Origin: a virus | DNA: 30,526 nt | IMG/VR virus record: IMGVR_UViG_3300010389_001519 | Coordinates: 1 to 30,526 of that record | Reading direction: 5' to 3' (one strand) | Shown: in pieces, positions 4,974 to 8,628 of the stretch | Position numbering within the stretch: position 1 is the first letter of the stretch | Layout: every line of letters starts with the position of its first letter | Notes under the pieces: generated by a model | The model's database searches: none | What the model was told of the DNA's origin: nothing | What the model saw: the letters and a program-made list of their open reading frames with translations, nothing else | Made by a program: the position numbers and the translations under genes

Positions 4974-6053
4974 ATGGGACGTACAAAAACACGGGTATAC
5001 CTGAACCGTGAACAGGCGGTTGAAATGGGATTAACGCCCAACAACTGCAACTACTATTGGGTAACTCCTGACGAAAAAGAAACCATCGAAACCCACAAAG
5101 CACTAAAAGACGAGTGCGTAAAGGTGGGGATTCCTTCCGATTCGGTCAACCACTACTGGCACAAAGGGAAGAACTTTTCAATTCACGTCAAGAACCAAAA
5201 GAACTTATTAGATGTCAAGCGTCAGATTATCCAAGAAATGCAGGAGTATTCTCCTGAGTACCCTGTAATTGAGTACGAAAGTATAGACGAAGGGCATCTA
5301 CTTGTAATCGACCCTGCCGACATTCACATAGGTAAACTTTGCGATTCGTTTGAAACAGGTGACGACTACGATAGTCAGATAGCCGTTCAAAGGGTATTAG
5401 ATGGCGTTAGAGGGATTCTAAAGAAAGCACAGGGGTTTCCTATTGATGAGATACTTTTCGTGGCGGGAAATGACGTATTACACATCGACACGCCAAAGCG
5501 AACGACAACAAGTGGAACACCGCAGGACACATCAGAAATGTGGTACACCAATTTCATAATGGGGCGAAAATTATACACGGATATAATCGAAATGCTTATA
5601 CAAGTCGCTCCTGTCAGGGTTGTTTTCAATCCGAGTAACCATGACTTTATGAGTGGCTTTCAGTTGTTGGATGCGGTGCAATGCTGGTTTAGAAATTGTG
5701 AATCGGTTACGTTCGATGCAGATATGAGGCATCGCAAGTATTACCGCTATCATTCAAACTTAATTCAAACAACTCACGGGAACGGAGCAAAGACTTCTGA
5801 TTTACCTTTGTTAATGGCTCAGGAAACACCGTTAGATTGGAGCAAAACAAAGCATAGATACATCTACACCCACCACGTTCACCACAAAACGAGTAAAGAC
5901 TTAGTAGGCGTTACGGTTGAATCAATGCGAAGCCCATCCGGGACTGACGGTTGGCATCATCGTAATGGTTACCAGCACGCTCCGAAGGCGGTTGAAGGAT
6001 TTATACACCATAAAGAACACGGTCAAATCGCACGTTTAACGCATATATTCTGA
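4974..6053 (+). CDS. Calcineurin-like metallophosphoesterase
   Basis: 359 residues. Metal-ligand motifs of the metallophosphoesterase superfamily appear in order: D113-PADIH118, GND (165-167), the NPSNHD block (219-224), THGN (267-270) and YTHHVHH (298-304). The N-terminal 100 residues look like an extra domain with a possible DNA- or protein-binding role. I know homologues in Bacteroidetes phages, often called DNA repair exonuclease-like, but their substrate is not established. The upstream 19 bases contain TAAATTGC, a weak match to the -7 box. It sits between the holin-like gene and the amidase gene; a role in lysis is not implied by its sequence. Confidence 0.8.
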   Translation: MGRTKTRVYLNREQAVEMGLTPNNCNYYWVTPDEKETIETHKALKDECVKVGIPSDSVNHYWHKGKNFSIHVKNQKNLLDVKRQIIQEMQEYSPEYPVIEYESIDEGHLLVIDPADIHIGKLCDSFETGDDYDSQIAVQRVLDGVRGILKKAQGFPIDEILFVAGNDVLHIDTPKRTTTSGTPQDTSEMWYTNFIMGRKLYTDIIEMLIQVAPVRVVFNPSNHDFMSGFQLLDAVQCWFRNCESVTFDADMRHRKYYRYHSNLIQTTHGNGAKTSDLPLLMAQETPLDWSKTKHRYIYTHHVHHKTSKDLVGVTVESMRSPSGTDGWHHRNGYQHAPKAVEGFIHHKEHGQIARLTHIF

Positions 6054-6517
6054 TGGAATATCCAGCAATATCAAGAGGCATAAAGTATTACATCATCCAT
6101 TGTGCTTACACCAAAGCCGATCAAGACTTCGATGTGGAAGACATACGAAGGTGGCACAAAGCAAAAGGATGGATGGACATAGGCTATAACCGATTTGTTA
6201 AAAGAGACGGCACGTTGCAAGAGGGTAGAGATTTAAGGCACTGGGGGGCGCACACATTAGGTCATAACCACGATTCCATTGCGGTGTGTTACGCAGGAGG
6301 CAAGAGCGAAGATAACAAGCCCGAAGACAATATAACGGTAGAGCAGTTCAATTCCATTATCAAGGACTTCCTAAAGTGGCAAGAAGTGTACCATGATTTG
6401 GTAATGGCTGGACACAATCAGTTTAACGTGAAAGCGTGTCCATGTTTTGATGTTCGTGAGTACGCAGCGAAACACGGGATGCCATATTATGACGGAGAAC
6501 TAAAAGTAAAACTATGA
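6053..6517 (+). CDS. N-acetylmuramoyl-L-alanine amidase, T7-lysozyme type (endolysin)
   Basis: 154 residues, close to T7 lysozyme (about 150). It cleaves the amide bond between muramic acid and L-alanine in peptidoglycan. The zinc ligands predicted from the T7 alignment are H16 (IIHCA), H121 (GHNQF) and C129 (KACPCFDV); the catalytic partners are Y45 and K127. WGAH (64-67) and AVCYAGG are also typical. There is no signal peptide, so export depends on a holin. Start codon overlaps the previous stop. Confidence 0.9.
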   Translation: MEYPAISRGIKYYIIHCAYTKADQDFDVEDIRRWHKAKGWMDIGYNRFVKRDGTLQEGRDLRHWGAHTLGHNHDSIAVCYAGGKSEDNKPEDNITVEQFNSIIKDFLKWQEVYHDLVMAGHNQFNVKACPCFDVREYAAKHGMPYYDGELKVKL

Positions 6518-6705
6518 GAAATTTATATGAATTTGTAGGGGGCAGAAAGATGTTGGTCTTTTACCTTCTTGTTGGACTAAGCGGTGGGCTATGGTTCTTC
6601 AATAGAGAAATCACAGCGGATCAACTGTTTAGGTTTTGGGAATGGACAACGGTAGCTTTAGTTTTGGGTAATGTAGGAAGTAAATTTGCAGGTCGTGAGA
6701 AATGA
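6514..6705 (+). CDS. Holin-like protein with two membrane segments, 63 aa
   Basis: The start overlaps the amidase stop. There are two hydrophobic stretches (LVFYLLVGLSGGLWFF and TTVALVLGNVGSKF) around a short polar loop, and a charged C-terminus (AGREK), the usual look of a class II holin. It lies directly after the amidase and before the spanin-like pair, the classical holin-endolysin-spanin neighbourhood, so it is a stronger holin candidate by position than the protein at 4784. Confidence 0.58.
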   Translation: MRNLYEFVGGRKMLVFYLLVGLSGGLWFFNREITADQLFRFWEWTTVALVLGNVGSKFAGREK

Positions 6706-6976
6706 GCATTGGATAATAGCAATTTGCGCTGCCTTCATATTAGGCTTTCTAAGCGCACCAAAGAAGAGCGAGTATAGTGTGGACACAGGACTAGAGGAAA
6801 GATTGCTTAATGACGCTGAAAATGCCCGCAAACGGGCTGACAGTCTTTTAGTGATGGACGCACGAAAGAACGAGCAGATACGACAACTTGAATTAGAACT
6901 GATAAAGAATGAAGAGTTTATTGATACCGCTACTCCTGACCAGCTCGATAGCCTATTCACAGCCTACCTTAGATAA
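6686..6976 (+). CDS. Membrane-anchored coiled-coil protein, i-spanin-like
   Basis: About 96 residues. Start is either TTG 6686 (an AGGAAG stretch stands 5 or so bases upstream) or GTG 6695; both overlap the holin-like gene. An N-terminal membrane anchor (WIIAICAAFILGFLSA) is followed by a long charged helix with a heptad look (ENARKRADSLLV...QIRQLELELIKNEE). That is the design of an inner-membrane spanin subunit, which disrupts the outer envelope at the last lysis step. The gene's 3' end overlaps the next gene in another frame. Function is inferred from topology and context; no sequence family was recognised. Confidence 0.55.
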   Translation: MQVVRNEHWIIAICAAFILGFLSAPKKSEYSVDTGLEERLLNDAENARKRADSLLVMDARKNEQIRQLELELIKNEEFIDTATPDQLDSLFTAYLR

Positions 6977-7343
6977 ATCGCAATTAGCGATAACAAAAAA
7001 TCCGTATGGACAAAGCGATTCAGGAGAAATATCGCATATCGCAATTCACGATACTATCTGCATCCGCAAGGAGAAAGCAATAGACTGCGTGCGGTGCTTA
7101 ATGAACGAACCTGTTAAGGACAGTCTTATTGTAAGACTTGAAGAGAAGAACGAGATTCAGGCGGGTGCTATTGAGAACCTGGTAGAAGCAAACGACAAAC
7201 AGGCAGAAGTAATCGTACTGAAAGACCAGCGCATCGCAGGGCTTAATGATGAGATAGGCAGACGCAAAAAAAAGACGCTTTTTGCAGGCATCCTTTCAGG
7301 TGTAGGCGGGGTTTTTGTTGGTTGGTTAGTCTCCCTGTTTTAG
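6909..7343 (+). CDS. Secreted coiled-coil protein with C-terminal membrane segment (spanin partner?)
   Basis: 144 residues. The N-terminus is a clear signal peptide (MKSLLIPLLLTSSIAYSQ, probable cut before Q). Two CxxC-like cysteines follow (DCVRC), then a long coiled coil (about 70-118) and a C-terminal hydrophobic segment after RRKKK (TLFAGILSGVGGVFVGWLVSLF). The first 68 bases lie inside the upstream i-spanin-like gene in a different frame, as in Rz/Rz1 pairs. It lacks the lipobox cysteine of classical o-spanins and has an inner-membrane-type C-terminal anchor, so it could also act as a single-molecule spanin. It is the last rightward gene before the convergent leftward operon. Confidence 0.55.
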   Translation: MKSLLIPLLLTSSIAYSQPTLDKSQLAITKNPYGQSDSGEISHIAIHDTICIRKEKAIDCVRCLMNEPVKDSLIVRLEEKNEIQAGAIENLVEANDKQAEVIVLKDQRIAGLNDEIGRRKKKTLFAGILSGVGGVFVGWLVSLF

Positions 7344-7397
7344 TAGTTGTGTTTATCGTTCCATTACAGAAGGTTATCACCAATGCGTTTATTAGGG

Positions 7398-7416
7398 TGT
7401 TAGCAACAATAAACAC
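7398..7416. repeat. Left imperfect inverted repeat flanking the methyltransferase
   Basis: TGTTAGCAACAATAAACAC. The reverse complement of 8051-8069 is TGTTAGCAACTGTAAACAC, which matches at 17 of 19 positions. The two copies bracket the methyltransferase ORF almost exactly: the left copy abuts its stop codon. Confidence 0.7.
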
Positions 7417-7427
7417 TACCATAGTGC
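7413..7427 (-). terminator. Short hairpin at the end of the leftward operon
   Basis: Read leftward, the hairpin GCACTA-TGG-TAGTGT contains the methyltransferase stop codon and is followed by a T-rich stretch (TTTATTG). An 8-base pair GTGTTTAT (7349-7356) / ATAAACAC (7409-7416) could form a larger bidirectional structure between the two convergent operons. The stem is only 5-6 pairs and the T run is interrupted, so terminator activity is uncertain. Confidence 0.35.
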
Positions 7428-8042
7428 TTGTTGAGCCGTTTGTTCTTTAAATCGCTTACAAGCCTTTTCGTAGTATTCAGCATCTATCTCATAGGCTATT
7501 AACTTTCGTTTCATTTGGTGGCAGGCTATGGCTATGCTTCCGCTTCCCAAGTGAGTATCCAAAATCAAATCGCCCTCGCTCGTATAGTTTTCTAAAATCC
7601 ATTTGTAAAGTGATACTGCTTTTTGAGTTGGATGTATTTTTATATCTTCATTATGAAACTCTACTCTACTTTTTCTAAAGGCTTTACTTGCACTATCAAA
7701 TGAAGTCCACGCCATTTCAAAATCACTGCCCGTAAACTTTTGTATTTTATCTTAAATCAAAAAGCATCTTGTGCTTGGTAAATAATCAAGAAAGTAATTT
7801 CCACCCCAAATAATTTGATTTTTAGATACCCTCATAAGTTCTTTAAAATAGTTTGCACTTGGTATTTCCTTATCCCATCCTTTTTTAGGGATGCTATTCA
7901 TTTGTATTTTACCTGTTTTGCCGCCTTTAAATTTATCGTGCAAACCATAAGGCGGGTCAACTATTGCAATATCAAAGTAGTTGTCGCCATAGCCTTTTAA
8001 GGCTTGTAAGCTATCCCCGTGTATTAATTCAATGTCTTTCAT
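7416..8042 (-). pseudogene. DNA adenine methyltransferase (beta order), interrupted by an in-frame TAA
   Basis: Read leftward, one frame encodes a methyltransferase of about 208 residues, broken only by a TAA at 7754-7752. The first part (96 aa) has HGDSL and the catalytic DPPYGLHD. After the stop the same frame continues with 12 residues (DKIQKFTGSDFE) into MAWTSFD, then HPTQK and the AdoMet-binding DTHLGSGS. Catalytic motif first and AdoMet motif last is the beta-class order of N6-adenine or N4-cytosine methyltransferases. The expected sequence at the stop is LIWDK, so TAA replaces what is usually a Trp codon. No frameshift is needed. Possibilities: pseudogene, sequencing/assembly error, or two polypeptides that associate (the second ORF has a Met 36 bases after the stop). 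Coding sequence looks more AT-rich than the neighbouring phage genes. Typical role of an intact enzyme: protection of phage DNA from host restriction. Confidence 0.82.
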
Positions 8043-8050
8043 ATAAATCC

Positions 8051-8069
8051 GTGTTTACAGTTGCTAACA
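8051..8069. repeat. Right imperfect inverted repeat flanking the methyltransferase
   Basis: GTGTTTACAGTTGCTAACA; pairs with 7398-7416 (17 of 19). It lies 9 bases upstream of the methyltransferase start and its distal end (CTAAC) is also the left arm of the attC-like cruciform at 8064-8113. Confidence 0.7.
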
Positions 8070-8113
8070 ATGGCTATACGGCATTAAAACGACCGCATAG
8101 CCTCAATCGTTAG
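8064..8113. other. attC-like cruciform (integron cassette recombination site candidate)
   Basis: An imperfect palindrome. Paired segments: CTAAC 8064-8068 with GTTAG 8109-8113; GGCTAT 8072-8077 with ATAGCC 8097-8102; CGG 8079-8081 with CCG 8093-8095; loop 8082-8092. The outer arms fit the attC core boxes: rightward GTTAGGT (8109-8115) fits GTTRRRY, leftward ACCTAAC fits RYYYAAC. The flanking words CTAACAAT and CTCAA-TCGTTAG look like those of classical cassette attC sites. It sits 4 bases past the stop of the 8120-8365 gene and 21 bases before the methyltransferase start, the spacing expected between two cassettes read leftward. The opposite GTTAGCA arm deviates from consensus. No integron integrase is in the window. 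It could instead be a simple terminator hairpin. Confidence 0.5.
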
Positions 8114-8119
8114 GTCCAA

Positions 8120-8365
8120 TCAATCCCATTCCCAAGTACGAAGGTTTCTATTTTCAATACCACAGCGTAAAGCCTTCTCAATATCGCAATGGTAAATTAC
8201 TGTTTCATTATCTACCATCATACAAGTGATCCCCCTTAATGCGCTGTTAAACTTATCCATATTTATATCTGGATAGTATTTTAAGAGCATATCAATTTCA
8301 CTCTGAACAAACCCTTCTTTATTCTTTGTCTTAAAGTTGTAAACTTTTTCTCTAATGTTTTCCAT
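8120..8365 (-). CDS. Hypothetical protein, 81 aa
   Basis: A compact alpha/beta-looking protein with motifs EIDMLLKYYPDINMDKF and RGITCMMVDNETVIYHCDIEKAL, ending in RTWEWD. I have a weak memory of similar small proteins in phages and Bacteroidetes genomes, with no known function. It stands between two attC-like palindromes in the leftward accessory segment and looks AT-rich, consistent with acquisition as a cassette. Confidence 0.65.
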   Translation of the reverse strand: MENIREKVYNFKTKNKEGFVQSEIDMLLKYYPDINMDKFNSALRGITCMMVDNETVIYHCDIEKALRCGIENRNLRTWEWD

Positions 8366-8384
8366 TGTTCGTTATTACTCCCGT

Positions 8385-8446
8385 TCGGGTATAGCTAAAA
8401 CCATTTTATTGCGATACGTTAATACATTATACCGCATCGGGTATAG
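8385..8446. repeat. Direct repeat and hairpins in a non-coding gap
   Basis: The 10-mer TCGGGTATAG occurs at 8385-8394 and 8437-8446. The first copy lies in a CCCG-TT-CGGG hairpin (8380-8389) and the second in TATACC-gcatcg-GGTATA. The pair may be an operator or part of a processed leader for the downstream leftward genes. No gene was found at 8366-8508. Confidence 0.4.
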
Positions 8447-8490
8447 TCAACTATTTTGGTTCGTTTACTTGACATTCTAACTCAGACCCT

Positions 8491-8542
8491 AACCATTGAG
8501 GTTTATTGTCAGTCAAAGTATCTACTGACCGTTCTCATGGTT
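8491..8542. other. Second attC-like cruciform (weaker)
   Basis: Nested inverted repeats: AACCAT (8491-8496) with ATGGTT (8537-8542), one extra unpaired T at 8497, then GAG (8498-8500) with CTC (8534-8536), and an inner stem GTCAGT (8508-8513) with ACTGAC (8524-8529). A two-part stem with a single extrahelical base is the architecture of attC. Read leftward the end is CCTCAATGGTTAGGG, close to CCTCAATCGTTAGGT at the first site. Both core boxes deviate from consensus, so support is lower. Confidence 0.35.
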
Positions 8543-8628
8543 GCGTCAGAAGATGAACTTACTTCTGTGCGCTTTTCTGCACTTCTTATCGTTGTTACTT
8601 CCAAAAAGTACAATATATTATTCATCAT
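8509..8628 (-). CDS. Possible 39-aa ORF overlapping the previous gene
   Basis: ATG ATG at 8628-8623 overlaps the end of the 8618-8803 gene by 11 bases, and the ORF runs to a TGA inside the second cruciform. The product is Ser- and Thr-rich with no recognised motif. The overlap suits the operon style, but nothing else supports it. If cassettes are read leftward, it would be the ORF in front of the second attC-like site. Confidence 0.25.
   Translation of the reverse strand: MMNNILYFLEVTTIRSAEKRTEVSSSSDATMRTVSRYFD

Follow-up and report, generated by a model that had tools for sequence, protein, structure and literature searches.

An attC-like hairpin and a methyltransferase cassette in a tailed phage suggest an integron-like system of large viruses

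Introduction

Can a phage genome carry a mobile gene cassette of the integron type, and which enzyme would move it? This question is raised by a whole virus record of 30,526 bases, the whole stretch of DNA analysed here (the window), in which no match to an integron integrase is found. An earlier note, made from the sequence, had proposed that two attC-like cruciforms separate leftward genes between 7.4 and 8.5 kb and that they possibly mark a cassette segment in a putative Bacteroidetes phage. Phage-borne methyltransferase cassettes are already known: Qi et al. 2023 (PMC9892861) describe cassette segments (CALINs) in phages, and that of Polaribacter phage P12002L has two methyltransferases. 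One of its sites (P12002L_attC2) recombines with attI1 via IntI1, and integron parts in phages are regarded as infrequent (PMC9892861). Almost no complete integrons are found in Bacteroidetes by IntegronFinder 2 (PMC9024848).

Results

The phage and its hairpin

The window is assigned to a tailed phage since a terminase large subunit, a primase/helicase, an amidase and a tape measure are encoded in it (PHROG matches). At the nucleotide level, positions 5298-6049 resemble Flavobacterium phage hemulen6-1, which indicates that the host is probably of the Flavobacteriia type. The methyltransferase genes of hemulen6-1 occupy the place that corresponds to the cassette segment of the window. A terminase search for close relatives of the window phage with an empty site returned only three distant contigs. 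The features of the segment are collected in Table 1.

Table 1. Coordinates of the cassette segment and its surroundings in the window
Feature	Position	Strand	Basis
Phage genes leading to the cassette segment: DNA repair exonuclease family, amidase, small lysis-type ORFs	4974-7343	+	PHROG matches
Other cassette end box, GTTGCTAAC (+ strand reads GTTAGCAAC)	7399-7407	-	Sequence; homology of relatives ends nearby
Methyltransferase cassette core between the end boxes	7399-8068	-	Nucleotide identity to L002, L039
N6/N4 DNA methyltransferase gene, in-frame TAA at 7752-7754	7416-8042	-	PF01555
Cassette end box, GTTAGCAAC (+ strand reads GTTGCTAAC)	8060-8068	-	Sequence; common to L002, L039
attC-like hairpin, CTAAC-GATTG-AGGCTATGCGG-T-C(GTTTTAAT)G-CCGTATAGCCA-TT-GTTAG	8064-8113	-	Fold, covarying family
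81-aa ORF, best explained as gene of a second cassette; far end not preserved or not recognised	8120-8365	-	L472-L474
Weak imperfect palindrome, not accepted as family site	8489-8543		z -2.4 to -2.6

The first cruciform is present where the earlier note placed it: of the two leftward genes, the methyltransferase gene starts at 8042 and the 81-aa ORF stops at 8120, and the cruciform lies in between. Folded as a single strand, it gives -10.4 kcal/mol on the minus strand (z -4.9; none of 200 shuffles is equally good) and -6.8 kcal/mol on the plus strand (z -2.6). Its stem surrounds the loop CGTTTTAATG, which is also the loop of the covarying site family described below, and the family core AAC..GTT spans 8066-8111. 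The claimed box pair GTTAGGT/ACCTAAC is half right: GTTAGGT is found on the R' side of the plus strand, while the other box reads GTTGCTAAC, so that the exact pair is absent. The second proposed cruciform (8491-8542) does not hold. It reaches a z of just -2.4 to -2.6 against shuffles and is ruled out as an attC-like site by its geometry, in which the box, spacer and stem arrangement of the family is missing. The first hairpin is the sole family-type site detected in the window. IntegronFinder 2 by default calls a CALIN from at least two attC sites without an integrase, a number that the one convincing site of the window does not reach.

The box-stem geometry alone is weak evidence, because Markov shuffles of the window yield about six bare box-stem matches with at least 10 pairs. 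The hairpin could thus be thought of as a chance palindrome beside an ordinary phage methyltransferase. We give this reading practically no weight, since the hairpin belongs to a family whose loop and box words recur across over 100 contigs while the stems covary; it is already contradicted by the folding of that family, the counts of box complements and the covariation. Homologous cassettes also end at the same boxes, and their ends are complementary.

The window hairpin was further compared with other known elements. No intrinsic terminator pattern (a GC-rich hairpin followed by a T run) is seen at 8064-8113. None of the Rfam covariance models reaches its gathering score in the window, and the weaker matches below it are unrelated; tRNA readings of the hairpin gave no match either. 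The outcome that the earlier note named as a refutation, palindromes solely as terminators within one phage lineage, is not seen: the window site shows no terminator pattern and the sites adjoin different genes.

The cassette and its ends

The decisive feature, which is absent from the earlier note, is a pair of complementary boxes. The boxes GTTAGCAAC (7399-7407) and GTTGCTAAC (8060-8068) are exactly complementary, and they bracket the methyltransferase gene 0.66 kb apart. As in an integron cassette, the start is complementary to the R'' box of its own attC-like site.

The same boundaries are observed in relatives. L002 is 77% identical in nucleotides to the window over 7387-8112 and L039, a phage-like contig from a Winogradskyella MAG, is 91% identical over 7398-8091; outside these ranges no nucleotide match was reported. 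Homology to L003 and L004 ends at 7399; in all four relatives it ends at 7387-7399, within about 12 nt of the end box. Methyltransferase relatives in L006, L123 and L127 are bounded likewise, and the gene recurs with the same ends across unrelated contigs. L039 has a near-identical methyltransferase, yet its hairpin stem differs; hence the hairpin is not simply carried along by the gene.

The PF01555 match (E 1.8e-17) covers the C-terminal half of the methyltransferase. At the position of the in-frame TAA a tryptophan is found in all six aligned relatives. A TAA in place of this tryptophan would equal a CC to TT double change on the plus strand, so the gene looks newly broken, unless this is an assembly error. 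Separately, the flank outside the 7399 end mirrors the sequence inside it (GTTTATT..AATAAAC, 7387-7413). A mirrored flank is also seen at the 3' end of the methyltransferase in L002 (GTGTTTAT..ATAAACAC) and in L004 (GAGTTTAC..GTAAACAC), and it varies together with the inner sequence. A terminator, a second att arm or something else are candidates for it.

Relatives of the 81-aa ORF (86%) occur in L472-L474 with GTTATGCGC (GTTATGCAC in L472 and L473) and GCGCATAAC as end boxes and with attC-like sites on either side. The 5' boundary of this second cassette is not found in the window. The 81-aa ORF is best explained as the remains of a second cassette preceding the methyltransferase cassette. 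The proposal of a phage-borne, attC-like cassette segment is thus borne out in that the ends are complementary and both genes recur as bounded cassettes.

A covarying family of sites

Each site of the family combines R boxes (TAACG...TGTTA) with a spacer that stays unpaired and a stem that covaries, which is the integron arrangement of R'' and R' boxes in an imperfect palindrome with an unpaired central spacer. The loop-word pattern of the window matched at least 120 stretches of viral contigs, of which, by a rough estimate, tens could arise by chance in a contig collection of the size searched. Among the matches listed, nearly all fold, and most of the 125 distinct sites listed have differing stem sequences around the identical loop. 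For 14 distinct sites of equal length (48 nt), 98.7% of the stem cells are paired compared with 72.5% after shuffling, and both sides are altered in a compensatory manner in 10 of 12 stem pairs; slid controls fail this test. In the short sites a single unpaired T is found beside the apical C-G pair. The hairpin is found again beside many different ORFs, with compensatory changes in its stem. To be noted, the terminal part of a site of about 126 nt in L369 contains two tRNA T-arm-like stretches (GGTTCGATTCC, GGGTTCGACTCCC); no tRNA is predicted at this site.

The complementarity of the ends is general. Among the 120 matches listed, the complement of R' is found downstream in 47 of 101 and that of R'' upstream in 43 of 93, compared with 2-4 in the controls. 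In most of 271 distinct bounded cassettes, the two ends repeat each other exactly in inverted orientation over 8-10 nt; the repeat is 10 nt long in 154, 8-9 nt in 91 and longer than 10 nt in one.

Site arrays beside a viral tyrosine recombinase

Of 40 hairpin-bearing records, 9 encode a tyrosine recombinase, mostly within about 5 kb of a hairpin; the contigs of these 9 are 55 to 465 kb long. It matches the integron-integrase model on both sides with the middle unmatched. With seven of these recombinases as queries, 80 viral loci were collected. In large viral contigs, dense arrays of sites are found directly upstream of the recombinase gene (about 268 aa) and on the same strand. This holds for 64 of 65 loop-family hairpins; the remaining one lies downstream on the opposite strand, and none of the 65 is downstream on the strand of the recombinase. 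Controls with shuffled loops and reversed sequences gave 0-2 hairpins, whereas a further listed control, ATTAAAAC, is the complement of the loop and hence no real control. A wider scan, which demanded bulge-free stems, adds longer sites of 85-90 and 110-136 nt.

Adjacent boxes match at 9 of 9 positions in 150 of 256 pairs, against 1.8% with shuffled partners; 222 of these pairs are distinct, and several of the viral contigs may be near-copies. The resulting chains reach up to 10 sites. Between the final site and the recombinase gene, 57 of 66 loci contain the complement of the last box, and in most of these it is followed by a TAACTAT..ATATA motif about 50 nt before the gene. This conserved attI-like motif takes the position expected of an attI site beside the recombinase gene of an integron; the window has no such motif.

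Among 40 recombinase records, a T4-type major capsid gene is found in 16, compared with 0 of 14 control genomes, and a terminase in 14. Many of the viruses with such arrays are large tailed phages. The window itself has one good site and no such recombinase. In L353 (G439), a methyltransferase of the window family stands in the array immediately before the recombinase, and it is through such cassettes only that we infer a tie between the cassette of the window and the viral recombinase. Chained arrays with several methyltransferase genes are also observed in the cultured Flavobacterium phages hemulen6-1 (L037) and filifjonk9-1 (L038) and in Tenacibaculum phage JQ (L036). A search for the recombinase in named phages gave just integrases of 29-38% identity.

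Identity of the recombinase

In the NCBIfam ranking, XerA is nearest (recomb_XerA_Arch is the best model), followed by the integron integrase and XerC/D, all under the cut-off. The best PDB matches of the recombinase model are XerA (PDB 5hxy, 4a8e) and the V. cholerae integron integrase. An additional domain near patch III has been called defining for integron integrases (Ghaly et al. 2022, PMC9668308). Both motif spacing and tree indicate that it is missing from the viral recombinases. The stretch between the K(G)..R motif and HxxRH, where the domain is located, measures 52-57 residues in the viral enzymes, 57 in the one other enzyme measured and 79-100 in 17 true IntI; a slightly different measure gives 48-50 for the viral group and 62 for XerD. 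In the tree, which has long branches, the integrases group as a single clade, and the main viral group forms a separate one, whose sister L442 is chromosomal; the recombinase of L353 is a long branch outside the main viral clade.

Related recombinases, mostly of 340-475 aa, are encoded in the Bacteroidota chromosomes L483-L491, possibly as part of a chromosomal cassette system. Their chained attC-like sites lie on the opposite strand past the 3' end of the recombinase gene, and for this reason they were kept separate from the viral group.

Cassette turnover and polarity

L384 and L372 differ by 1086 bp, which is exactly two cassettes, between flanks of 576 and 960 bp that are 100% identical. 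This difference could have arisen by homologous recombination within the roughly 40 identical bases of the hairpins. It raises the wider possibility that the hairpins are recombinogenic repeats or weak terminators, shuffled by homologous recombination of the phages with no dedicated enzyme. The sites are indeed intergenic, about 40 identical bases are common to many copies, and copies of this kind delimit the L372/L384 difference. We nevertheless regard this explanation as very unlikely. The complementarity of neighbouring boxes extends over 8-10 nt and stops sharply at 10, and stems covary around constant loops and boxes, features that are needed neither for termination nor for homologous recombination. 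The linkage to a tyrosine recombinase is moreover strictly one-sided, and the window site shows no terminator pattern.

The orientation of the genes is also distinctive. An ORF of at least 40 aa lies on the AACG..TGTT strand in 231 of 246 cassettes and on the AACA..CGTT strand in 15. On the gene strand, the conserved bases are those of the canonical bottom strand and the spacer lengths those of the canonical top strand. Judged by shared neighbouring sites, polarity is 4 to 1 for one reading, from few cases, and the L372/L384 event favours the other.

The elements of an attC site are the spacer, the extrahelical bases and the terminal structure (Bouvier et al. 2009, PMC2727003). No canonical extrahelical bases are found in the stems of the chained arrays, which pair without bulges. 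As the scan itself required bulge-free stems, this evidence rests on the complete chains.

These results bear on whether we are dealing with ordinary integron cassettes, that is, canonical attC sites that came from a bacterial integron and are moved by an integron integrase of the host. The published phage CALINs and the activity of one P12002L site with attI1 and IntI1 (PMC9892861) speak for it, as do the integron-like R' and R'' boxes, spacer and end complementarity. The sites flanking the P12002L methyltransferase share the geometry of the window family and are presumably those that were tested with IntI1. All the same, we consider this origin unlikely. The recombinase linked to the arrays has no integrase-specific domain, and the cassette genes lie on the opposite strand relative to the site. 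The bulge-free geometry detects just one site in the canonical array of about 10 sites of Shewanella phage M16-3. True integron integrases were also tried as owners of the site family and rejected: their loci in the same phylum sample (L492-L503) have no such arrays.

Discussion

A cassette system of large viruses

The segment of the window is best read as a movable methyltransferase cassette with one foldable hairpin, part of a large, seemingly undescribed integron-like viral system. We consider it quite likely that the methyltransferase cassette and the remains of a second one are cargo of a tailed phage and were recombined at the attC-like site by a tyrosine recombinase. The site would fold as single-stranded DNA into the hairpin in vivo, and a tyrosine recombinase would exchange the boxes, so that each cassette could leave and enter as a unit, its 8-10 nt ends pairing with each other. 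A good candidate for the enzyme is the XerA/IntI-like recombinase of about 268 aa that is encoded where arrays of this site family end in large viral contigs; it may act at the attI-like site TAAC-TATnATATATA about 50 nt before its own gene. It would have reached the phage of the window in trans, from a co-infecting virus, a prophage or the host. The cargo is probably selected, as methylation would shield phage DNA from host restriction, although the gene is broken here.

In a broader sense, we lean towards the view that large tailed viruses of Bacteroidota-type hosts have an integron-like system of their own, with a compact XerA-like recombinase that has no integrase domain, an attI-like site at the start of its gene, and arrays of up to at least ten chained cassettes in reverse orientation with bulge-free hairpins, and that smaller phages such as that of the window are its carriers. 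Anti-restriction genes would therefore circulate between phages as cassettes. If the system is active, viruses possess their own cassette platform, of which hundreds of cassettes are detectable here, and methyltransferases pass between phages as ready-made units. Furthermore, a recombinase without the additional domain that is paired with sites without canonical extrahelical bases would provide a natural test of the roles of both features.

Comparison with known systems

No account of this recombinase-array system was found in the literature searched, which consisted mainly of open-access journal papers. Qi et al. 2023 (PMC9892861) describe neither the site family nor the attI-like motif nor a linked recombinase. 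With the CALINs of that study (P12002L, Tetrasphaera TJE1 and Pseudoalteromonas PH101), the window shares an integrase-less cassette segment in a tailed phage and a methyltransferase as cargo, and the P12002L sites fit its family. It differs from them in having only one convincing site.

The viral recombinase is like XerA, XerC and XerD in sequence and fold and in the missing IntI domain. Whereas housekeeping Xer enzymes act at dif, where they resolve chromosome dimers, the viral ones sit at cassette arrays in viral contigs.

The closest comparison is with the integron. Both have a tyrosine recombinase gene with an attI-like site next to it, and both have arrays of small ORFs. The sites are in each case imperfect palindromes that contain R'' (..AAC) and R' (GTT..) boxes, an unpaired spacer and a variable terminal part (sites of 40-190 nt), and the cassette ends are complementary. 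The viral system differs in the missing additional domain of its recombinase, in stems that have no canonical extrahelical bases, in genes on the AACG..TGTT rather than the AACA..CGTT strand, in the 8-10 nt length of the end complementarity and in array genes that run toward the recombinase gene and in its direction. The cassette segment with an attC-like site that the earlier note proposed is supported, its membership in a canonical integron is not: the system works like an integron and fails two of its defining tests, the integrase domain and the extrahelical bases.
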